Assembly (NCBI GenBank): GCA_024224155.1
Contig: JAAENP010000425.1
Span: 1-60,354, forward strand
Reading direction: 5' to 3'
Source: a bacterium
GTDB lineage: Bacteria; Acidobacteriota; Thermoanaerobaculia; Multivoradales; JAHEKO01
DNA: 60,354 nt
This document shows, in pieces, positions 6,123-17,278 of the stretch (its first letter is position 1; every line of letters begins with the position of its first letter). A program made the translations under genes and the position numbers. The notes under the pieces were generated by a model, which was given only the letters and a program-made list of their open reading frames with translations, did not search any database and was not told the origin of the DNA.

Positions 6123-6160
6123 GCCCGAGGAACAGATAGGCCTCCTGCTAAGCTCGTTTG

Positions 6161-6844
6161 ATGTCTCGTCAGCGAATCGTCGTCGTCGAGGATGAGCCCG
6201 ACATTCTCGAAATCCTCCGCTACAACCTCGAGCGCGAAGGCTATGCCGTGGACGCGTTTTCGAGAGGTGATGAAGCTCTCGAGGGAATTCGGAAGAACCC
6301 GCCGGACTTGTTGCTGCTGGACTTGATGCTTCCAGGAATGGACGGCCTCGAGATCACTCGGCTTCTGAAGCGAAGTCGCGAGACCGCCGAGATCCCCTTG
6401 ATCATGCTCACCGCCAAGGACCAGGAGGTGGATCGCATCGTGGGCCTTGAGCTGGGCGCTGACGATTATCTGGCGAAGCCGTTCAGCCCGCGAGAAGTCG
6501 TCTTGCGAGTCAAGGCGGTTCTTCGCCGGAGTAACGGTTCGCCCTCCGGAGCCGAGACGTCGCGCGTGGGTGGGTTGGAACTCGACATTCCGGCCCATCG
6601 GTTGCTTGTGAACGGGATCGAAGTCGAGGTGACGGCGACCGAGTTTCGATTGATTAGAGTCCTGATGGAGCGGGCTGGGCGAGTTCAAACGCGAACCCAG
6701 CTCCTTGCGGACGTTTGGCGATACTCCGAGGACGTCGATAGTCGCACCGTGGATACGCATGTTCGCCGTTTACGCAAGAAACTCGGTCGAGAAGCGACGC
6801 GAATCGAGACCGTCATCGGCGTCGGTTACCGGCTGAAGGCCTGA
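6161..6844 (+). CDS. phoB: PhoB-family response regulator
   Basis: The 227-residue protein has a receiver domain (about 1-120) with the acidic pair E10/D11, phosphoacceptor D54 in LLLLDLMLPGMDG, T84 and K106 (LAKPF), so all switch residues are present. An OmpR/PhoB winged-helix domain follows (about 130-227), with ATEFRLIRVLMERAGRV and the recognition-helix segment SRTVDTHVRRLRKKLG. The ATG at 6161 is preferred to a TTG one codon earlier. It lies 7 bp upstream of a PhoR-like kinase gene and upstream of an OprP-type porin with a Pho box, within 11 kb of a pst operon. That context makes PhoB, the activator of phosphate-starvation genes, the natural assignment. No Pho box was found directly before this gene, only a 38-bp gap after the barrel gene. 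Confidence 0.9.
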   Translation: MSRQRIVVVEDEPDILEILRYNLEREGYAVDAFSRGDEALEGIRKNPPDLLLLDLMLPGMDGLEITRLLKRSRETAEIPLIMLTAKDQEVDRIVGLELGADDYLAKPFSPREVVLRVKAVLRRSNGSPSGAETSRVGGLELDIPAHRLLVNGIEVEVTATEFRLIRVLMERAGRVQTRTQLLADVWRYSEDVDSRTVDTHVRRLRKKLGREATRIETVIGVGYRLKA

Positions 6845-6851
6845 GCCCAGC

Positions 6852-8126
6852 TTGAGCTTCGGTTTCAAGACGTTTCTCGCGGTATTCGGCGCCGTGTTTC
6901 TTAGCATCGCGTTGTTGGTTCTCTTCTGGAGCCGATTCGGTGAGATCCCGTCTGCGAAGGTCTTGGGAGCGAGCGCAGTGGTGGTGGGGCTGATTTCGGT
7001 CGCCGCGAGCCATCTAGTGATCCGGGCGGCCGAGGCGCGGCTCAGTCGGCTCTCGGGAGACGCCGACAAACGCCTGAGCCAGGTCGAATCGGAGAGCCAG
7101 CGATTAGAGGCTGTTGTGGATGGCATGTCGGAAGGAGTCCTGGTCTCGGATGCGAACGGCAGGGTATCTCTTGCCAATCCCCAATGGCGCGAGCTCTTCG
7201 GCCTGGGCGACGAGGTGGAGGGGGAGTCGGTGCTAGAGCTCAGTAACCGGACCGCCCTCAATCGGATGCTGACCGCGACGCTCGAAGACCAGCAGCAGCA
7301 ACAGATCGAGCTCGAGCTGCCGGATCCCGATTCTGGAACATCCAGGACTCTGATTCTCAAGAGTGCTCCTCTGAGCGAATCGGGCGGCGCGGTCGTGGTC
7401 GCCGAAGAGGTCACCGAGCTCCTGCGCCTGACTGAGATTCGCCGCGATTTCGTGGCCAACGTCTCGCACGAGTTGAAGACCCCGCTGTCGGCGATTCGTG
7501 GCTTTGCGGAGACGCTGACGGATGGTGCCAAGGACGATCCCAAGGCGTCGAAGCGGTTCCTCAAACGGATCCTCAAGCAATGTACGCGTCTCGAAGCGTT
7601 GCTCTCCGACCTGTTGACGCTGTCGCGGCTCGAGCACGCCGCGGATCAAGGACGCATGACCGACGTCGATATGGGCCGCATCGTTGCGGAAGCGGTCGAG
7701 GAAGTGGGCGAGAGGGTTGCCAAGAAGAAACTAGATCTCGAGACCGACTTGCGACCGGTTCGCGTGATCGAGGGAGACGCCGTTGCGCTAGAGCGACTGT
7801 GTGCCAACCTCCTCGCCAATGCCGTGAAGTACAACCGAGCCGGTGGAGAGATCCAGGTCAGATTGCTGCAGTCTGGGCACGATGTCGTGCTGGAGGTAGA
7901 GGACACGGGAATAGGCATCCCGACCGACTCGACCGAGCGGCTCTTTGAGCGCTTCTACCGGGTAGACAAAGGCCGTTCCCGGGAAGAGGGTGGCACCGGA
8001 CTGGGTCTCGCCATTGTCAAGCACGCGGCCAATCTGCATGGCGGCACGGTGGAGGTGGAAAGCGAGCTCGGCCGCGGCTCGCTGTTTCGTGTGCGGCTTC
8101 CGTCGGCCAGAACCACCTACTCGTAG
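6852..8126 (+). CDS. phoR: PhoR-like sensor histidine kinase
   Basis: The 424-residue kinase starts at a TTG 7 bp after phoB; no nearer ATG fits. Two N-terminal hydrophobic segments (about 4-24 and 32-52) form a short membrane anchor with almost no periplasmic loop, as in PhoR. A PAS domain follows (about 80-170). The dimerisation domain carries VANVSHELKTPLSAIRGFAE with phosphorylatable H206. The ATPase domain has an N box (LLANAVKYN), the G1 motif VEDTGIGIP and the G2 motif GGTGLGLAIVKH. Architecture and pairing with a PhoB-type regulator indicate the phosphate sensor kinase, which in enteric bacteria is held inactive by Pst-PhoU when phosphate is plentiful. The 3' end overlaps a short antisense coding remnant. 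An alternative is a generic PAS kinase, but gene context argues for PhoR. Confidence 0.88.
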   Translation: MSFGFKTFLAVFGAVFLSIALLVLFWSRFGEIPSAKVLGASAVVVGLISVAASHLVIRAAEARLSRLSGDADKRLSQVESESQRLEAVVDGMSEGVLVSDANGRVSLANPQWRELFGLGDEVEGESVLELSNRTALNRMLTATLEDQQQQQIELELPDPDSGTSRTLILKSAPLSESGGAVVVAEEVTELLRLTEIRRDFVANVSHELKTPLSAIRGFAETLTDGAKDDPKASKRFLKRILKQCTRLEALLSDLLTLSRLEHAADQGRMTDVDMGRIVAEAVEEVGERVAKKKLDLETDLRPVRVIEGDAVALERLCANLLANAVKYNRAGGEIQVRLLQSGHDVVLEVEDTGIGIPTDSTERLFERFYRVDKGRSREEGGTGLGLAIVKHAANLHGGTVEVESELGRGSLFRVRLPSARTTYS

Positions 8127-8353: not shown

Positions 8354-9523
8354 GTGTTCAAGAGAGTTCTTGGCGGCGCTTTTGCCGCGCTTGCTTCGGT
8401 AGCGACTCTGGCTGCGCCTGCCGCCGCGGGGGTTGTCGTCTATGAAGAAGGCGACAAGAAGATCGAGATCGGGGGGCGCATTCAGATCCAGTATGCGAGG
8501 GTCGATCCCGACGACGGAGACGCGAGAGACGAGGTTTTCTTCCGCCGCTTGCGCCCCTATATCTCAGGCACGGTGTCCAAGGACTGGGTCGGCAAGATCC
8601 AGTTCGACTTCGGCAAAAGCCTCGACGGCAACGAGGTTGCGGTCAAGGACGCCTACATGCAGTACAAGGGCTGGAAGAACAAGAAGCTCACGATCGGCAA
8701 TTCGAAGACACCGTTCTCGCGTGAGTTCTTGACGTCGTCGAAGCGTCAGCAGACCGTCGAGCGTGGTTTCGTCGGTGACCACAACTTCGGCACACCCGAT
8801 CGGCAGCTCGGCTTCAAGCTCGAGGGCCACAACGACAGCAAGAAGGTCAATTGGGCCCTCGCGCTCGGTAGCCAGCAGCTCGACCCCGATGCCAAAATAA
8901 TGGACTTCGATTCGCCGGCCAACAACGCCGCGGATTGGAACCAGGGCATCGTGGTCGCGGGGCGGGTCGATTTCCACCCCCGGGGAGCGATGAAGTTCGA
9001 CCAAGGGGACTTCCACAGCGACGGCTTCAAGAGCTCGTTCAGCGTCGCGGCATTCACCTGGGCCAACGACGACGACAACAACACGCGTACCGACCCGACC
9101 ACGGGTTTGAGCACAAGCTCCTCGAAGCCGGATCTCGATAGCGCCGAGGGTTTCGAGTTGAGCGCCGGCGTCCGCGGCAAAGGTCTCTCGGTTGACGCCG
9201 AGTATCAGCTGATCTCCGGCGACACCGTCGATCCGACTTTCACCGGAGGGGTATACCGCGGCGGTACCACCGATCTCGACAAGATGCAGATCGAAGGCGG
9301 CTACATGCTGAAGGGCAGTCCAGTCGAGCTTGTGGCAGCCTGGGAGACCCTGGACGCCGACAACTATGAGACGTCGTGGGACGCTACGGAGCTCGGCATC
9401 AACTACTTCTGGAACAAGCACAAGGTAAAGGTCCAGTTCACCTATCGCATGGGACAGAATGTGTTTGGTGTCAAAGGCGACGACGCGGACACCGGTCTCC
9501 TCCAGTGGCAGTTCGTGTTCTAG
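8354..9523 (+). CDS. Phosphate-selective porin, OprP/OprO family
   Basis: The 389-residue protein has a signal peptide ending APAAAG, then GGRIQIQYARVDPDDGDARD and FFRRLRPYISGTVSKDWVGK, the N-terminal signature of Porin_O_P proteins. Later VKDAYMQYKGWKNKKLTIGN and TPFSREFLTSSK follow the family's third and fourth strands. The end QWQFVF has the terminal Phe of outer-membrane barrels. The start is GTG, with a strong AGAGGAGA Shine-Dalgarno sequence 6-7 nt upstream. OprP of Pseudomonas is a phosphate-specific channel induced by phosphate starvation and OprO favours pyrophosphate; which anion is preferred here cannot be read. The Pho box upstream and the adjacent phoBR and pst genes support a role in phosphate uptake across the outer membrane. 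A 24-bp palindrome after the stop probably ends the transcript. Confidence 0.9.
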   Translation: MFKRVLGGAFAALASVATLAAPAAAGVVVYEEGDKKIEIGGRIQIQYARVDPDDGDARDEVFFRRLRPYISGTVSKDWVGKIQFDFGKSLDGNEVAVKDAYMQYKGWKNKKLTIGNSKTPFSREFLTSSKRQQTVERGFVGDHNFGTPDRQLGFKLEGHNDSKKVNWALALGSQQLDPDAKIMDFDSPANNAADWNQGIVVAGRVDFHPRGAMKFDQGDFHSDGFKSSFSVAAFTWANDDDNNTRTDPTTGLSTSSSKPDLDSAEGFELSAGVRGKGLSVDAEYQLISGDTVDPTFTGGVYRGGTTDLDKMQIEGGYMLKGSPVELVAAWETLDADNYETSWDATELGINYFWNKHKVKVQFTYRMGQNVFGVKGDDADTGLLQWQFVF

Positions 9524-9538
9524 CGGTAGCCTAATCCA

Positions 9539-9562
9539 GGCGGACGACCGCGGTCGTCCGCC
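9539..9562 (+). terminator. Perfect 24-bp palindrome after the porin gene
   Basis: GGCGGACGACCG followed directly by its reverse complement CGGTCGTCCGCC begins 15 bp after the porin stop. It would fold into a stable GC hairpin with the middle bases as loop. There is no T-run after it, so it could be a terminator that does not follow the simple intrinsic pattern, or an mRNA-stabilising hairpin. Confidence 0.5.
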
Positions 9563-9716
9563 CCGCCCCCAGATCCGAGCTGTAACCTATGTCCCCGGGT
9601 CGACCTGTTACCTATCTGTCCGGGCCAAACAGCTTGTCTCGACCGTCTTCTCCTCTCTTCGAGGTGGACGCGGACTGGGGTACTCTGGTGCGGTCCGGGG
9701 CCGGCTGACACTTTCC

Positions 9717-10292
9717 ATGGGCGAGAAGTTCTACATCAGCGCGCAGGGACTCTTGGAGGATTCCTTCCGCCTCGGCGCGAAAGTCCTCGAAAGCGGGTTC
9801 AAGCCGAGCTTCATCGTCGCCATTTGGCGGGGCGGAGCGCCGATCGGTATGGCGGTCCAGGAGTTTCTCGACTACCACGGGGTACCTACCGACCACATCG
9901 CCATCAGGACGTCCTCGTATCAAGGAATCGACGGTCGGTCTCCGACAGTTCGCATTCACGGGACCAGCTACCTGATCAAGAACCTCGAGTTCGAGGATCG
10001 CCTGTTGATCGTCGACGACGTTTTCGACACTGGCTACACGATCCAGGCGTTGATCGCGCATCTGCGAGAAAAGTCGCGGCTAAACACTCCTGAGGACATC
10101 CGGGTCGCAGTGCCGTACTACAAGCCGTCGCGAAACGAGACGGATCTGGTGCCGGACTACTACCTCCACGAGACCGACCGGTGGATCAAGTTCCCGTACT
10201 CGCTCGAGGGCTTGACCATAGACGAGATTCGCGAGAAGCGGCCGGAGGTCTGGGAGGTCATCAAGGGGTCGGTGGCTCAGGTGTCAGAGTAG
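9717..10292 (+). CDS. Phosphoribosyltransferase-family protein 1
   Basis: The 191-residue protein has a type I phosphoribosyltransferase fold. FIVAIWRGGAPIGMAVQEFL carries the early pyrophosphate-binding loop, and RLLIVDDVFDTGYTIQ is the PRPP-binding motif with its two consecutive acidic residues and DTG. It resembles the COG2236 / Hpt group, whose members salvage hypoxanthine, guanine or xanthine by joining the base to PRPP and releasing pyrophosphate. The ATG at 9717 was chosen because its length equals the neighbouring paralogue exactly (191 residues); the frame is open upstream but holds no domain. It is separated by only three bases from a second paralogue and lies between the porin and the pst operon. 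The role in phosphate metabolism is unclear; purine salvage is the family default and the substrate is not determined. Confidence 0.82.
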   Translation: MGEKFYISAQGLLEDSFRLGAKVLESGFKPSFIVAIWRGGAPIGMAVQEFLDYHGVPTDHIAIRTSSYQGIDGRSPTVRIHGTSYLIKNLEFEDRLLIVDDVFDTGYTIQALIAHLREKSRLNTPEDIRVAVPYYKPSRNETDLVPDYYLHETDRWIKFPYSLEGLTIDEIREKRPEVWEVIKGSVAQVSE

Positions 10293-10295
10293 CTT

Positions 10296-10871
10296 ATGGA
10301 GAAAGAGTTCATCCGGGAAGAAGATCTTCTGCTGGACGCCTACCGACTAGGAGTAAAGATTTATCAGAGTGGCTTTCGGCCGACGGTCATCGTCGGGGTC
10401 TGGCGCGGAGGAACCTCGGTCGGTATCGCCGTGCAGGAGTGCCTCCAGTATCTGGGGGTCGAGACCGATCACATCTCGATTCGCACCTCCTATCGGGGGA
10501 TGACCAGCTACAAGGCGATGCTGGACAACGCGGAGGCGATTCGAGTCCATGGCACCCGGTACTTGCTCGAAAACCTGAATGCCGAGGACGGCCTTTTGAT
10601 CGTCGACGACGTCTACAGCTCGGGCTTGAACGTCCAAGCGGTGATCGACCGGCTCGCCCATCGAACCAAGCGCAATATGCCACGCCAGGTGCGGGTCGCG
10701 GTTCCTTGGTACCGGCCGTCCAGCAGACGGACCGACCGGGTGCCGGACTACTACCTCTACGAAACCGACAAGTGGCTGGTGCTGCCCTGGGAACTCAACG
10801 GTTTGACTCGGGAAGAGATCTACCGCGAGAAGCCGTTCTTGAAGCCGATACTTGAAGGAGTGAATCGGTAG
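10296..10871 (+). CDS. Phosphoribosyltransferase-family protein 2 (tandem paralogue)
   Basis: This protein is also 191 residues and aligns end to end with its upstream neighbour: TVIVGVWRGGTSVGIAVQEC matches the first loop, and GLLIVDDVYSSGLNVQ occupies the PRPP-binding motif. Here the loop has SSGLN instead of DTGYT, so the Thr/Ser residues that normally hold the 5-phosphate are changed. Both proteins end with a similar segment (VPDYYLYETDKW versus VPDYYLHETDRW). The start ATG follows the upstream stop by three bases, so the two genes are translationally linked. Equal lengths, different PRPP loops and coupling suggest a heteromeric enzyme or one catalytic and one regulatory subunit; this is inference. 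Type I phosphoribosyltransferase membership is clear. Confidence 0.82.
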   Translation: MEKEFIREEDLLLDAYRLGVKIYQSGFRPTVIVGVWRGGTSVGIAVQECLQYLGVETDHISIRTSYRGMTSYKAMLDNAEAIRVHGTRYLLENLNAEDGLLIVDDVYSSGLNVQAVIDRLAHRTKRNMPRQVRVAVPWYRPSSRRTDRVPDYYLYETDKWLVLPWELNGLTREEIYREKPFLKPILEGVNR

Positions 10872-11078: not shown

Positions 11079-11297
11079 ATGGGGCTACCTGAAGTCAGGG
11101 ATTCTGAAGTGCTCCCGGCGCGGAATGCCGTGCAGGCGCTTCGCCTGGATCCTCTGATCGTCGCGGCCGCGGCAGAGGTGGATCGGACTCTGCTTCGCTG
11201 GATGCTCAGTCTTTCTCACCGCGACCGTCTTCGGGCGAGTACCAGGGCGACGGCTGCGCTTTCCCGGATCCGTCGTGGATCGACCCAAGCAAGCTGA
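11079..11297 (+). CDS. Small basic protein paired with a nucleotidyltransferase
   Basis: This 72-residue protein includes EVDRTLLRWMLSLSHRDRLR followed by ASTRATAALSRIRR. I recognise this helical pattern from small proteins encoded directly before nucleotidyltransferase genes; the function is unknown. Its 3' end overlaps the start of the next gene by 23 bp, so the two are surely co-translated. The ATG at 11079 was chosen because everything upstream in the frame is the palindromic repeat element read through. The pair resembles a toxin-antitoxin or accessory module, but I cannot say which partner would be toxic. The protein has no signal peptide and should be cytoplasmic. Confidence 0.6.
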   Translation: MGLPEVRDSEVLPARNAVQALRLDPLIVAAAAEVDRTLLRWMLSLSHRDRLRASTRATAALSRIRRGSTQAS

Positions 11298-11769
11298 TCT
11301 CGCTGCCCTGATCGAGGCACTGGTCGAGGCCGGCGTCGATTTCCTGGTGATCGGCGGTGCCGCGGCGGTTCTTCATGGAGCGCCCACGACTACTTGGGAC
11401 CTCGATATCGTTCACGAGAGGTCTCCCGAGAACCTGGACCGCCTGCGCAATCTGTTGGAAGAGCTACACGCGGTTGTGCGCGATCCGGCCGGTAGAGATC
11501 TGAAGCCGACTCGCGGCCTCCTCGAAGCCGGTGGTCAGCTGCAACTGCTGACGGACCTGGGCCCGATCGATCTTCTCGGAACTCTCCACGATGGACGGGA
11601 CTACGACGATTTGCTGGCCAAAACCGAGAGCGTGGGAGACGAGACGTTGCGGATTCGGGTGCTCGACCTGCCGACTTTGATCGAGGTCAAGGCCGGTGCC
11701 GGTCGAGCGAAGGATCGACTCCTGATGCCGGTACTTCTTGCGCTGCAGGAAGAACGAGAGTCGGGCTAG
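11275..11769 (+). CDS. Nucleotidyltransferase-family protein
   Basis: The 164-residue protein begins at a GTG inside the upstream small gene. It contains FLVIGGAAAVLHGAPTTTWD followed by LDIVHERSPEN, the GG...D-x-D core of the nucleotidyltransferase fold (Gly-Gly near residue 27, metal-binding Asp pair near residues 41-43). The C-terminal part has RVLDLPTLIEVKAGAGRAKD, a conserved end in this group. Related folds occur in MNT and AbiEii-type toxin systems and in small hypothetical nucleotidyltransferases; no catalytic specificity can be assigned. The stop overlaps the stop of the convergent pstB1 by four bases (a shared CTAG), leaving no room for a terminator between them. Confidence in the fold is high and in the biological role low. 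Confidence 0.75.
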   Translation: MDRPKQADLAALIEALVEAGVDFLVIGGAAAVLHGAPTTTWDLDIVHERSPENLDRLRNLLEELHAVVRDPAGRDLKPTRGLLEAGGQLQLLTDLGPIDLLGTLHDGRDYDDLLAKTESVGDETLRIRVLDLPTLIEVKAGAGRAKDRLLMPVLLALQEERESG

Positions 11770-12545
11770 CCGTAGCGACCTTCGATGTAGTCCGCGGTCT
11801 GCTGGTCCTCGGGTGTCATGAAGAGCTCTTCGGTCAGGTCGTGCTCGATGACCTTGCCTAGAAGCATGAAGATGCACTCGTGACTCGCACGCCGGGCCTG
11901 GGCCATGTTGTGGGTGACGATCAGAATCGTGTACTCGCCCGCGAGCTTCCAGATCAGCTCCTCGACCGCTTCGGTGGCTGCAGGGTCAAGCGCTGAACAG
12001 GGCTCGTCCATCAGCAGGACCTCGGGCTTGACCGGCAAGAGGCGCGCGATACAGAGCTTCTGCTGCTCTTCCAGCGAGAGGTCGGTCGCCGTGCGGTCGA
12101 GCCGGTCCTTGACCTCGTCCCAGAGCAGGACCTCCCGCAGAGCTTCTTCGACGATGCCGTCGCGATCCGCTTTCGACAACGTCCTTGCATCGGCCTCATG
12201 CAGCCGGTAGCCGAAGAGGACGTTGTCGCGAATCGAGAGCGGCAGCGGGTTGGGCCGCTGGCAGACCATACCGCCTTCCTTGCGCACCTGCACCATTTCG
12301 TTTTCGGGCGCAAAGATGTCGTGACCGTGCACCTCGATCTTACCGGTCGTGCGGACATAGCCGAGCCGCTCGATGATCCGGTTGACACTTCTCAGGAGAG
12401 TCGTCTTGCCGCACCCGGAGGGTCCGATCAAAGACGTGATCAGTCCCTTCTTGATCTCCAGGTCGACGTCGAAAAGGGCCTGGAAGGTCCCGTACCAGAG
12501 GTTGAGCTTCTCGGTGCGAATCGCCGGGGCTTCTTTCTTAGCCAA
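11766..12545 (-). CDS. pstB: Phosphate ABC transporter ATPase PstB1, with degenerate signature motif
   Basis: This 259-residue ATPase of the Pst phosphate importer has an intact Walker A (GPSGCGKTT, 41-49), Q-loop (VCQRPNP, Q96), Walker B (VLLMDEP, E181), D-loop and switch histidine (IVTHNMAQ, H212). The ABC signature, normally LSGGQ, is instead LSLEE (156-160), although QQKLCIAR after it is typical PstB. The signature acts on the ATP held by the partner subunit, so this change should affect only one site of a mixed dimer. It is the last gene of the leftward pst operon and overlaps pstB2 by 8 bp. The start is an ATG with pstB2's end upstream. PstB hydrolyses ATP to drive phosphate through PstA/PstC. 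See the paired defects in PstB2. Confidence 0.93.
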   Translation of the reverse strand: MAKKEAPAIRTEKLNLWYGTFQALFDVDLEIKKGLITSLIGPSGCGKTTLLRSVNRIIERLGYVRTTGKIEVHGHDIFAPENEMVQVRKEGGMVCQRPNPLPLSIRDNVLFGYRLHEADARTLSKADRDGIVEEALREVLLWDEVKDRLDRTATDLSLEEQQKLCIARLLPVKPEVLLMDEPCSALDPAATEAVEELIWKLAGEYTILIVTHNMAQARRASHECIFMLLGKVIEHDLTEELFMTPEDQQTADYIEGRYG

Positions 12546-13322
12546 AGCGCCCCTCCAGATAGCCCTTGGTCCGCTCGTCGGCGACCTCGCCTTCGAAGAG
12601 CTTCTCGGTTTCGCCGACCTCGACCAGCTCGCCCGACAGGAAGAAGGCTGTGCGTTGGGAGAGCCGGCGGGTCTGCTGAACCAGGTTGGTGACCAGGATG
12701 ATGGTGATCTCGTCCTTGAGCTCTTTCAGGACGTCCTCGATGCGCATTGTGGTTACCGGATCGACCGCGATCGAGAACTCGTCGAGGAGCAGAAGATCCG
12801 GATCCTGCGACAGCGCCCGGGCGATGGTGAGCCGCTGCTGCTGGCCACCGGACAGAAGGCTTCCGAGAGAGTCGAGACGATCCTTGACCTCGTCCCAGAG
12901 CGCGGCCCGGGTCAGGCAGCGCTCGACGATCACGTCCAGATCCGGCTTCTTCTTGATGCCGGCCAGCCTGGGCGCGAGCGCGACGTTGTCGTAGACCGAG
13001 AGCGGCAGGCCCACGGGCAGCGGGAAAACGACGCCGATGCGCCGTCTCAGGGCGTAGACGTTCTTCCAGCGCCGGACGTCGCTGCCGTCGAATTTGATCG
13101 TGCCATCGACCTTCATCGATGGCACGAACATGTCCATGCGGTTCAGGGCGCGCAGAAACGAGGTCTTGCCACTGTTGGCGGGTCCGATGATGCCGAAGAT
13201 CTCGTTCTCGAAGATGTCGAAGCTGGCGCCCGAAAGAGCCTTCTTGGGGCCGTAGCTGATCGCCAGTTTCTTGACCTCGACGAAAGGCCGAGGCCGGAGG
13301 CCGTCTTGGTCTTGTGGACCGG

Positions 13323-13329
<7 letters not shown>
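12538..13329 (-). CDS. pstB: Phosphate ABC transporter ATPase PstB2, with degenerate Q- and H-loops
   Basis: The 263-residue PstB paralogue keeps Walker A (GPANSGKTS, 49-57), a perfect signature LSGGQQQRL (159-167) and Walker B (LLLLDEF, E184). The Q-loop glutamine is replaced by proline (VVFPLPVG, P103), and the switch histidine by asparagine (ILVTNLVQQ, N215). These are the reverse of PstB1's defects: PstB1 has good Q- and H-loops but a poor signature. In a PstB1-PstB2 dimer one composite site would be fully canonical and the other crippled. The start is GTG at 13329, overlapping the pstA stop region by 7 bp; the stop overlaps pstB1. Pro-rich N-terminal residues 1-15 are unlike PstB1. It forms the ATPase part of the Pst importer on the inner face of the membrane. 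Confidence 0.93.
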
Positions 13330-14192
<863 letters not shown>

Positions 14193-14219: not shown

Positions 14220-15161
14220 TTACTTCTTTCGGATGCCGCGAACCACGAGATCGGCGGTCAGGTTGATCACAAAGGTCACGATGAAGAGGAGGATTCCGAG
14301 CGTGAAGAGCGCTCGGTAGTGGTCGGATCCGACCGCGGTTTCGCCCAGTTCGGCCGCGATCGTGGCAGTGAGAGCGCGGACGGAATCGAACACGCTGGTC
14401 GGCAGGTTCACCGAGTGGCCGCTGGCCATCAGAACCGCCATGGTCTCCCCGAAGCCGCGGCCGACGCCGAGCAGGACGGCGGCAACGAGCCCGTTCTTGG
14501 CCGCGGGTAGGACGACTCGACGCACCACCTGCCAACGGGTCGCGCCGAGCGCCTCGGCGGCTTCCCGGTAGGTGTCGGGCACCGCTTTCAAAGCGTCCTC
14601 GGCGATCGTGGTCATGATCGGTGCGGCCATCAAACCCAGAATCAGGCCCGAGTTGAGGACGTTCAGGCCGATCGGAACGTCGAAGGTCTTGATGATGAAC
14701 GGATTCATGATCGAAAGGCCGATGAAGCCCCAGACCACTGAAGGTATGGCCGCCAGGAGCTCGACCAGGATCTTCAGGGTCTCTCGGGTCTTGCCCTTGG
14801 CGAATTCGCCGATGTAGATCGCTGCGCCGAGAGAGAACGGAACCGACACGATCATCGCCAGGCCGGTCACACTGCCGGTACCGACGATCAGGGCAAGCGC
14901 GCCGTAAGTCGGGTTGTGGTCTGAGGTCGGTCGCCACCGTGGTGAGGTGAAGAATTCACCGACGTCCAGCGTGTCGGTGATGAAACCGAATCCCTCCTTG
15001 GTGATGAAGACGAAGATGCCGATGACGAAAACGATCCCGGAGATTCCGCCAACGAAGACCAGGGCCTGCACGGCCTTGTCGATGTACCAGTCGCGGTCAC
15101 GCCGGTCTCCGTCTCGCCGGCGGTCGTGGCGCGCCTGGGTGTTGACGGCTGATTGATTCAC
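14220..15161 (-). CDS. pstC: Phosphate ABC transporter permease PstC
   Basis: The 313-residue permease has a hydrophilic, Arg/Asp-rich N-terminus (about 28 residues), then six transmembrane helices. The ATPase-contact loop reads EAAEALGATRWQVVRRVVLP, and AAIPSVVWGFIGLSI and GRGFGETMAVLM are PstC hallmarks. The periplasmic loop SPRWRPTSDHNPTYGALALI follows the family pattern in which a W-P element precedes the second helix. It pairs with PstA to form the phosphate channel. The gene is 31 bp downstream of the phoU-like fusion gene and 27 bp upstream of pstA, within the leftward operon. Length and motifs match ordinary PstC proteins; nothing abnormal was seen. Confidence 0.95.
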   Translation of the reverse strand: MNQSAVNTQARHDRRRDGDRRDRDWYIDKAVQALVFVGGISGIVFVIGIFVFITKEGFGFITDTLDVGEFFTSPRWRPTSDHNPTYGALALIVGTGSVTGLAMIVSVPFSLGAAIYIGEFAKGKTRETLKILVELLAAIPSVVWGFIGLSIMNPFIIKTFDVPIGLNVLNSGLILGLMAAPIMTTIAEDALKAVPDTYREAAEALGATRWQVVRRVVLPAAKNGLVAAVLLGVGRGFGETMAVLMASGHSVNLPTSVFDSVRALTATIAAELGETAVGSDHYRALFTLGILLFIVTFVINLTADLVVRGIRKK

Positions 15162-15192: not shown

Positions 15193-16284
15193 TCAGTCGG
15201 CCTCGTCGCCGCGGAGCGTTTCCATGAGCTCTCGCATGTCGTGTTTGATCTCTTTGAAGGCCGCCTTCAGCATTGCCTGTGAGCGCTCCTGGTCCAGATC
15301 GTGTGTGTAGCCGCCGATGTCCCATTCCAAAACAACGGTGCGGAAGGGAACCTCCTCGAATCGCTCTCGTGTTCCTGGCTCGAGTCCGATCACGAGATGA
15401 AACTCGGCGAGCTCTTCGAGGGTCGCCGGCATGGGCCGTGGCTCGAGGCCGCGGGTGCTGAAATTCTTGCGGTCGAGAAAGTGAAGGCACTGCATGTCGA
15501 CCTTCTCGGCGGGCTCCCAACCGGCGCTCTCGTACTCCCCGCTAGCGGGAAAGGCCTTGCGCGCGAAGGCCGCCGCCATCTGGCTCAGGCTGTCGTTGTG
15601 TGAGTCCACGAACAGGATTCGGTAGAACCTCTCGCCTTTGACCTCACCAGTGTTGGCAAAGATCACTTGCTCACAGATGTTCTTGGCCTGGCTCGCGACC
15701 CGACCGATGCTGGCGAGCACGGTCAGTAGGGCGAAGAGGTCCTGTACCTCACGCTTTTGTTTCCTGGCGGCTTTCATCAGATCCGAATAGGCCTTCTGAA
15801 ACGTCGCGCGAACCTGGTTCGCTGTCTCGAGGGTCTCTTTGGCGAGCTCGGAGTCGCCCTGCTTGAAAGCCTGGAGGGCCTGCTCGAGCACCTCTATGGC
15901 TTGGCTGGAGATCAACTCGATGTCGCTCATGAGCTTGCCTGGTGGCTTCTCAGAGAGCTGGATGACCTCGCGGCAGATGGTGACCGCATAGTCGCCGATT
16001 CTCTCGAGCTCGACGTCCAGCCGCAGCACGGAAGAGACGAAGCGCAGCGGACCGGCACTGGGGAGGTGCCGTACGACGAAAACGTGGCAAAGGCGATCGA
16101 TATCCCGGATTTCTCGGTTGACCGGTCGGTCTCCCAGGATGATCTCGGAGGCGAGGTCCTTGTCGCCGGTCAAGAAGGCGGCGATCGCCCTCTTCGTTGC
16201 TTTCCTGACGGTCGAACCGATGGCATCGACCCGGCCCTGAATCTCATCGAGATCCTGCTGTAGACGCTCTTCGTAGTGACTCAT
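15193..16284 (-). CDS. phoU: PhoU domain fused to an inactive low-molecular-weight phosphatase-like domain
   Basis: Residues 1-215 are a PhoU repeat pair, with the metal-binding signature RLDVELERIGDYAVTICREV (88-107) and a second, weaker copy ASIGRVASQAKNICEQVIFA. Residues about 219-355 have the fold of low-molecular-weight tyrosine phosphatases and arsenate reductases: YRILFVDSHNDSLSQMAAAF aligns with the P-loop ILFVCxxNxCRS. The nucleophilic Cys is Asp227, the second Cys is Ser232 and the catalytic Arg is Leu233, so phosphatase activity is not expected; an anion-binding or regulatory role is possible. The later AEFHLVIGLEPG and VVLEWDIGGYTHD match the end of that fold. PhoU normally links Pst transport to PhoR signalling. 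Length 363, against about 220-240 for PhoU alone. It sits between pstS and pstC, unlike the common pstSCAB-phoU order. Confidence 0.9.
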   Translation of the reverse strand: MSHYEERLQQDLDEIQGRVDAIGSTVRKATKRAIAAFLTGDKDLASEIILGDRPVNREIRDIDRLCHVFVVRHLPSAGPLRFVSSVLRLDVELERIGDYAVTICREVIQLSEKPPGKLMSDIELISSQAIEVLEQALQAFKQGDSELAKETLETANQVRATFQKAYSDLMKAARKQKREVQDLFALLTVLASIGRVASQAKNICEQVIFANTGEVKGERFYRILFVDSHNDSLSQMAAAFARKAFPASGEYESAGWEPAEKVDMQCLHFLDRKNFSTRGLEPRPMPATLEELAEFHLVIGLEPGTRERFEEVPFRTVVLEWDIGGYTHDLDQERSQAMLKAAFKEIKHDMRELMETLRGDEAD

Positions 16285-16390: not shown

Positions 16391-17278
16391 CTACCCGCAG
16401 CTTACCGAAAAGACCGGCGCGTAGCCCTTGTCCAAAATGATGCACTGCCCTTCCTGGGAGAGGATCCAGTCCAGGTATTCCTTGACCGCTCCCTCGGGCT
16501 GTCCGGCCGTGTACATGAACAATGGCCGCGCGATCGTGTAGGTGCCGTCGATTGCCGTATCGACCGAGGGACTGACACACCCTCCTTCAGCATCCGTGGA
16601 AACGCATGGCATCTTGACGTGCTCGGTGGCGTAGGCGAGGCCGCTGTAGCCGATCGCGCAGGGGGTGTTCTCGACCAGGTCGACGACGTCCTTCGAGCCG
16701 TGCATGTCGTGCGAGCCGAGCTCGTAGTCACGTTGCTTCCCGAGCACGGCCTCCTTGAAGTAGACGTAGGTGCCCGAGTTGTTCTGGCGGCTGACGCGGA
16801 TGATCTCGCCGCTCGAGCAGCCCGGTACCTCGACGCCGAGCTGATCCCAGGTCTTGGTGGTGCCGCCCTCGCCGTAGATGTCGGCCAGTTGCTCGAGATT
16901 GAATTCGTCGACCGGATTGTCGGGATGGACGAAGATCGCCAGGGCGTCGAAGCCAACCGTGTGCTCGACCGGCTCGATGCCGTTACTCCGGGCCATCTCA
17001 AGCTCCTTGGTCTTCATCTTGCGACTGGCGTTGGCGATGTCCACGGTGCCGTTGATCATCGCCGAGATGCCGGTGCCGGAGCCGCCGCCGGTGACCGCGA
17101 TGGCGATGTTCGGATTGACCTCCTTGTAGTTCTCGGCCCAGGCCTGGGCCACGTTGACCAGGGTGTCCGAGCCCTTGTTCTGGAGCACGGTTCTCGAGGC
17201 GCGCTCGCCGCCGCCACCACAGCCGGCCAGGGTGAGCGCTGCCGCGACGAGGCAGCCGCCCGCTAGAGCTTTCTTCAT
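16391..17278 (-). CDS. pstS: Phosphate-binding lipoprotein PstS
   Basis: The 295-residue lipoprotein has signal peptide MKKALAGGCLVAAALTLAGC with lipobox LAGC, so Cys20 is the expected lipid attachment point. Following are NKGSDTLVNVAQAWAENY, GGGSGTGISAMINGTVDIAN and VSRQNNSGTYVYFKE, the phosphate-contact segments of PstS (the two SGT elements bind the phosphate oxygens). It captures phosphate in the periplasm and delivers it to PstC/PstA. It is the first gene of the leftward operon, preceded by a GGGAGGA Shine-Dalgarno sequence and by a Pho box whose spacing to the -10 equals that of E. coli phoA. Lipid anchoring distinguishes it from the soluble E. coli protein but is common elsewhere. Confidence 0.95.
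   Translation of the reverse strand: MKKALAGGCLVAAALTLAGCGGGGERASRTVLQNKGSDTLVNVAQAWAENYKEVNPNIAIAVTGGGSGTGISAMINGTVDIANASRKMKTKELEMARSNGIEPVEHTVGFDALAIFVHPDNPVDEFNLEQLADIYGEGGTTKTWDQLGVEVPGCSSGEIIRVSRQNNSGTYVYFKEAVLGKQRDYELGSHDMHGSKDVVDLVENTPCAIGYSGLAYATEHVKMPCVSTDAEGGCVSPSVDTAIDGTYTIARPLFMYTAGQPEGAVKEYLDWILSQEGQCIILDKGYAPVFSVSCG

Follow-up and report, generated by a model that had tools for sequence, protein, structure and literature searches.

Introduction

How the Pst phosphate importer signals plentiful phosphate to the histidine kinase PhoR through PhoU is a long-standing question. In a dimer of ATP-binding cassette (ABC) subunits, each ATP site is built from the Walker A, Q-loop and H-loop of one subunit and the signature of the other. 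In a separate field, the D2 pseudophosphatase domains of the receptor protein tyrosine phosphatases (RPTP) gamma and zeta carry Asp in place of the catalytic Cys and have a regulatory use. The pst-phoU locus of Enterococcus faecalis contains two adjacent pstB genes with motifs intact in both copies (PMC12096839), and a 2026 phylogeny of PhoU-like regulators and their clades considered only those PhoU proteins that carry no further domain (PMC13170248). Here, we describe a gene on the minus strand of a 60,354-nucleotide stretch of acidobacterial DNA (contig JAAENP010000425.1, hereafter the window), the product of which joins PhoU to a domain with the fold of low-molecular-weight protein tyrosine phosphatases (LMW-PTP) and arsenate reductases (ArsC). 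As judged from sequence comparison and a structural model, this gene almost certainly encodes a full PhoU followed by a non-catalytic member of that fold. The fusion lies outside the phylogeny mentioned above because PhoU with extra domains was excluded there. Among open-licence full texts, no account of a PhoU-LMWPc fusion or of pst operons with degenerate PstB pairs was found; the fusion may have been noticed earlier elsewhere, and its architecture may stand in domain databases without remark.

PhoU fused to an LMW-PTP/ArsC-fold domain

The gene and its parts are located in the window as follows.

15193..16284, minus strand: PhoU-pseudoLMWPc fusion gene (P0001), 363 aa (open reading frame (ORF) list, Pfam, AlphaFold)
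15964..16221, minus strand: PhoU repeat 1, ExxxD motif kept as E94/D98 (Pfam and alignment)
15664..15912, minus strand: PhoU repeat 2, ExxxD motif degenerate (E to G, D198 to S; alignment)
15211..15630, minus strand: LMW-PTP/ArsC-fold domain, residues about 219-358 (Pfam above cut-off; Z 19.6 versus pI258 ArsC)
15604..15606, minus strand: Asp227 codon, at the catalytic Cys position (alignment)
15586..15588, minus strand: Leu233 codon, at the catalytic Arg position (alignment)

The N-terminal half contains two PhoU repeats (Pfam PF01895, 1e-28), and the protein scores 139.9 bits against the PhoU model TIGR02135, above the curated cut-off of 130.25. Residues 222-352 match LMWPc (PF01451) with 26.2 bits, where the gathering cut-off is 23.2. 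The AlphaFold model of the fusion, computed with 96 homologues as input, has a predicted local distance difference test score (pLDDT) of 94.4 and a predicted template modelling score (pTM) of 0.85. Residues 5-214 of the model superimpose on P. aeruginosa PhoU (4q25; Z 30.5, 1.2 Å), which places them in the PhoU fold, and residues 219-356 superimpose on S. aureus pI258 ArsC (1lk0; Z 19.6, 1.7 Å, 130 residues). A preliminary description of the window, made from the letters alone, had proposed an LMW-PTP/ArsC fold after the PhoU repeats, and the Pfam match and the model both agree with it. The ExxxD metal motif of repeat 2, which is lost in the window protein, is kept in a sister clade (see below) and partly kept in its own clade.

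The P-loop of the tail is ILFVDSHNDSLSQ (residues 223-235 of the fusion), in which the alignment places Asp227 at the nucleophile and Leu233 at the Arg, residues that had been assigned earlier and are present in the translation. The catalytic Cys and Arg of the C-x5-R motif of the enzymes of this fold are thus both replaced in the window protein. Additionally, the DP general-acid motif is gone, and EWDIGGYTHDL is found at that place.

Loss of the catalytic Cys throughout a widespread family

Searches that covered relatives, the class and the phylum, together with the genome collection and one draw of Pseudomonadota, yielded 132 distinct homologous fusions, distributed over at least ten phyla. 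The carriers belong to Acidobacteriota, Verrucomicrobiota (including records labelled Akkermansia), Lentisphaerota, Fibrobacterota, Ca. Raymondiibacteriota, Planctomycetota, Pseudomonadota (including the polyphosphate-accumulating Accumulibacter), Gemmatimonadota, Myxococcota, Rhodothermota and Nitrospirota. At the nucleophile position, 125 of these fusions have Asp, three Gly, two Glu, one Ala and one Ser, and none has Cys, whereas all 34 LMWPc domains of the Cys type that these searches also returned have Cys (33 solo domains and the fusion of genome G250, described below). The contrast is strong in a Fisher test (4e-36, uncorrected for kinship). Asp227 is among the best-conserved residues of the tail, and the Arg position is not. 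The earlier question of whether Cys and Arg are always lost is therefore answered differently for the two residues: no fusion keeps the Cys, but 43 of the 132 keep the Arg. By these alignments, the family has lost the Cys throughout and Asp is fixed in its place. That the tail is non-catalytic appears close to certain from these residues and from the model.

A recent mutation or an assembly error, which had been named as a possible refutation, is ruled out, as Cys is absent from all 132 fusions and these come from many assemblies. A bias of the searches towards Asp is likewise ruled out: the patterns of the collection scan did not include the P-loop, and the profile also caught Cys-type domains, one Cys fusion among them.

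In 16 close pairs, the ratio of nonsynonymous to synonymous substitution rates (dN/dS) is 0.05-0.47 for the tail versus 0.04-0.18 for the PhoU half, values at which the tail is under purifying selection.

Quick maximum-likelihood trees were calculated for each half, that of LMWPc with few columns and with the two key columns excluded. The fusions lie on one side of a branch in the LMWPc-half tree (Shimodaira-Hasegawa-like approximate likelihood ratio test (SH-aLRT) 97) and are also grouped together in the PhoU-half tree (SH-aLRT 100), which indicates one origin of the family. Two sister clades match the order of the operon. In the phoU-pstS-pstC clade, 36 of 51 members have the Arg, and the DP motif is mostly present; in the pstS-phoU-pstC clade, to which the window protein belongs, the Arg is kept in only 5 of 74 and the DP motif in one of 74. 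Because the sister clade mostly keeps the Arg and the DP motif and the window's clade has lost both, the replacement of Cys by Asp would be the earliest step. The simplest history is thus a single fusion, an early fixed Cys-to-Asp change and a later loss of the Arg and the DP motif in the window's clade.

An independent fusion with an intact active site

Genome G250 (locus L191) also encodes PhoU followed by an LMWPc domain, in which the Cys, Arg and DP are intact. Its operon (L191 7398-13126), to all appearances an arsenic-linked Pst operon, comprises an ArsR-LMWPc (ArsR-ArsC) gene, pstS, pstC, pstA, a single ordinary pstB and the PhoU fusion. In the two half-trees, this protein clusters with ordinary PhoU and with solo LMWPc, respectively, which indicates an independent origin; it probably serves arsenate. 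It therefore shares the two domains and their order with the window's family, but differs in its Cys-type domain, its link to ArsR-ArsC and its single PstB. Among the other long Cys-type LMWPc ORFs in a sample from the phylum, no PhoU was detected; only that of G250 was positive. Two further ORFs (L174 3-1667 and L185 1227-2999) begin with a Cys-type LMWPc domain, after which a sensor region and then an AAA+ region of sigma-54-activator type can be made out by eye; they would be a further case of LMWPc joined to a regulator.

A complementary degenerate pair of PstB ATPases

Two pstB genes belong to the operon of the window fusion.

12538..13329, minus strand: pstB1, LSGGQ signature intact, Q-loop Gln replaced by Pro, H-loop His replaced by Asn (motif reading)
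11766..12545, minus strand: pstB2, Walker A, Q-loop and H-loop intact, signature degenerate (LSLEEQQK; motif reading)

By their motifs, PstB1 and PstB2 form a consensus/degenerate ABC ATPase pair. Because ABC sites are composite, the Walker A side of PstB2 and the signature of PstB1 would make up one complete site, leaving a second site to which both subunits contribute degenerate motifs. Together with the gene order, the motifs point to a PstB1-PstB2 heterodimer with one hydrolysing site.

This asymmetry recurs in every fusion operon in which both pstB genes are readable. All 64 B1-type sequences have LSGGQ, Pro in place of the Q-loop Gln (one unreadable) and Asn in place of the H-loop His, and all 56 B2-type sequences combine a degenerate signature (LSLEEQQK or LQLEQQQK) with an intact Q-loop Gln and H-loop His (the latter cut off in one). 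An exception among the PstB sequences is that of L207, which is degenerate throughout. The PstB proteins found beside a PhoU from outside the family are intact in 11 entries (ten genes), including those of G250 and of the second operons of L124 and L133. Within the class, the PstB2-type genes are distinct by score (at least 377 bits versus at most 336) and are present in 20 of the 23 fusion genomes; the contigs of G028 and G071 are too short beyond the fusion, and G148 was unchecked. In Pseudomonadota, they are present in 22 of the 23 fusion genomes, and in the other one the contig ends inside pstC.

A second fusion copy in G543 (L287 6073-8697) lies by a pstC-like fragment (37% identity). The ATPase of this locus is altered in Walker A, Q-loop, signature and H-loop, and the locus is perhaps a regulatory remnant without transport.

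The pst operon and the Pho genes of the window

The remaining genes of the phosphate system in the window are listed below.

16391..17278, minus strand: pstS, phosphate-binding protein (ORF; homologues adjoin the fusion in other genomes)
14220..15161, minus strand: pstC, permease (ORF and homologue neighbourhoods)
13323..14192, minus strand: pstA, permease (ORF and homologue neighbourhoods)
6158..6844, plus strand: phoB-like response regulator (ORF sequence)
6852..8126, plus strand: phoR-like histidine kinase (TIGR02966, 312.7 bits)
8354..9523, plus strand: phosphate-selective porin O/P family gene

The operon, on the minus strand throughout, has the order pstS, fusion, pstC, pstA, pstB1, pstB2, so the neighbouring ORFs bear out the location between pstS and pstC and the Pho context that had been read from the sequence. 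A pstS or pstC gene adjoins the fusion in 130 of the 132 cases, the remaining two being without readable context, and every fusion with a readable neighbourhood lies in a pst operon. The phoB-phoR and phosphate-porin genes are about 8 kb from the fusion. The phoR-like product scores 312.7 bits against TIGR02966, below a cut-off of 334.2 bits that was reached in only one of 14 control genomes.

A PF01895 search of the window genome, which is about 97% complete, found no second Pst-type PhoU. The sole other match is a 616-residue open frame on contig C520, which we take to be a Na/Pi-cotransporter-type protein, leaving the fusion as the one Pst-type PhoU found there. With phoB-phoR nearby, this makes the link to PhoR that the preliminary description had suggested plausible. 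No PhoR gene was found among ten ORFs that flank the fusion at seven loci in other genomes. The window genome also encodes a solo Cys-type LMWPc protein (G000:C57).

Other genes were noted in these neighbourhoods. At L136 (10302-12332), pitR (PhoU_div) and pitA (PHO4 transporter) follow the fusion operon. In the window, two tandem phosphoribosyltransferase-domain genes (9459-10871) lie between the phosphate porin gene and the end of the pst operon, and a plus-strand ORF (11275-11769), which by eye resembles a small nucleotidyltransferase and has no Pfam match, overlaps the end of pstB2 in the opposite direction.

Discussion

The tail is probably regulatory rather than enzymatic, because its Cys is nearly always Asp and because, wherever the neighbourhood is readable, it occurs in a pst operon with a lopsided ATPase pair. 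We give a close to even chance to the reading that it is a non-catalytic docking module, which would fit PhoU to a Pst transporter with one catalytic site and take part in signalling to PhoR. The fusion would be the working PhoU of a Pst/Pho system, and its tail may bind the asymmetric PstB pair, or PstB and PhoR. The Asp side chain may lock the P-loop, empty of anion, in one conformation. PhoU could then follow the ATPase cycle in a transporter that hydrolyses at one site only, and would restrain PhoR when phosphate is plentiful. More tentatively, the locus may represent a distinct and widespread type of Pst, in which a one-site heterodimer importer is served by a dedicated PhoU whose pseudophosphatase tail recognises this asymmetry and ties the cycle of the ATPases to PhoR. 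If true, this would be a link between transport and signalling unlike that of the E. coli model. An interaction domain that is part of PhoU and can be removed, next to a seemingly one-site ATPase pair, offers a handle on which state of the transporter PhoU reads.

Several observations weigh against a docking role. In a neighbouring family, 19 genomes of a single genus (g11) have a PstB2-type gene without a detected fusion. In the only one with its gene order checked (G056, L251 2733-7108), the operon reads pstS-pstC-pstA-pstB1-pstB2, with about 32 bases between pstS and pstC and no fusion. Additionally, G590 contains two asymmetric pst operons (L284 and L285), neither with a fusion. A fusion implies an asymmetric Pst, but the converse is false, and because that Pst also exists without the fusion, the tail is dispensable for an asymmetric transporter; genus g11 is a natural fusion-free comparison. 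Furthermore, the tail evolves faster than the PhoU half in most of the 16 close pairs, and 7 of the 132 fusions have neither Cys nor Asp at the nucleophile.

An alternative, which the preliminary description had proposed, is an anion sensor: despite its changes, the P-loop would still bind phosphate, arsenate or a phosphorylated partner, and PhoU would pass the signal on. The structural Asn is kept in 119 of the 132 fusions and the Ser after the Arg in 97, and the phoU-pstS-pstC clade largely retains the Arg (36 of 51), so that anion sensing is possible mainly there. However, a carboxylate occupies the place of the anion, the usual Gly at the +2 position of the P-loop is His, Asp, Glu or Arg in most fusions, and the Arg is gone from 69 of the 74 members of the window's clade. 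Because the P-loop is altered in this way, anion binding has become less likely than first thought, and we consider it unlikely for the family.

The tail could also be a decaying relic without function beyond the stability or expression of PhoU. Its faster evolution in most pairs and the lack of the whole fusion gene in the asymmetric operons of g11 and G590 agree with this, but a dN/dS well below 1, the well-packed fold of the AlphaFold model and the near-invariant Asp make it rather unlikely. That the Asp itself works, as a phosphoryl acceptor or metal ligand in an Asp-based switch, would explain why it is conserved over at least ten phyla (125 of 132) more strictly than mere loss of Cys requires; this is quite improbable given that the Arg and the DP acid loop are missing in the window's clade and that natural Glu, Gly, Ala and Ser variants occur. 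A retained arsenic role for a tail derived from arsenate reductase is highly improbable. In its favour, the arsC pI258 model is the best-scoring one for the tail of the sister clade, and the separate PhoU fusion of G250 is encoded together with ArsR-ArsC and pst genes. However, both trees place that G250 protein with ordinary PhoU and solo LMWPc, and the Cys required for reduction is missing in every member of the family.

In comparison with known systems, the window fusion shares with PhoU (TIGR02135; 4q25, 1t72) the two repeats, the PhoU fold and the pst operon, but it adds a C-terminal domain of about 145 residues, and its gene lies between pstS and pstC (before pstS in the sister clade), whereas the textbook phoU follows pstB. 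With thioredoxin-coupled ArsC and LMW-PTP (PF01451; 1lk0, 1ljl), the tail has in common the fold, the position of the P-loop and the structural Asn, but it lacks the catalytic Cys, the Arg and the DP acid loop and is joined to PhoU. The same fold is also found in chain FW of the trypanosome mitoribosome (7pua; Z 17.2), a part of the ribosome without PhoU, for which the title of the entry suggests a structural role. The D2 domains of RPTP gamma and zeta are alike in the Cys-to-Asp replacement, but they belong to an unrelated PTP family and to a eukaryotic membrane receptor. Finally, the pstB genes are adjacent both in E. faecalis and in the window, whereas the window pair is complementary and degenerate.
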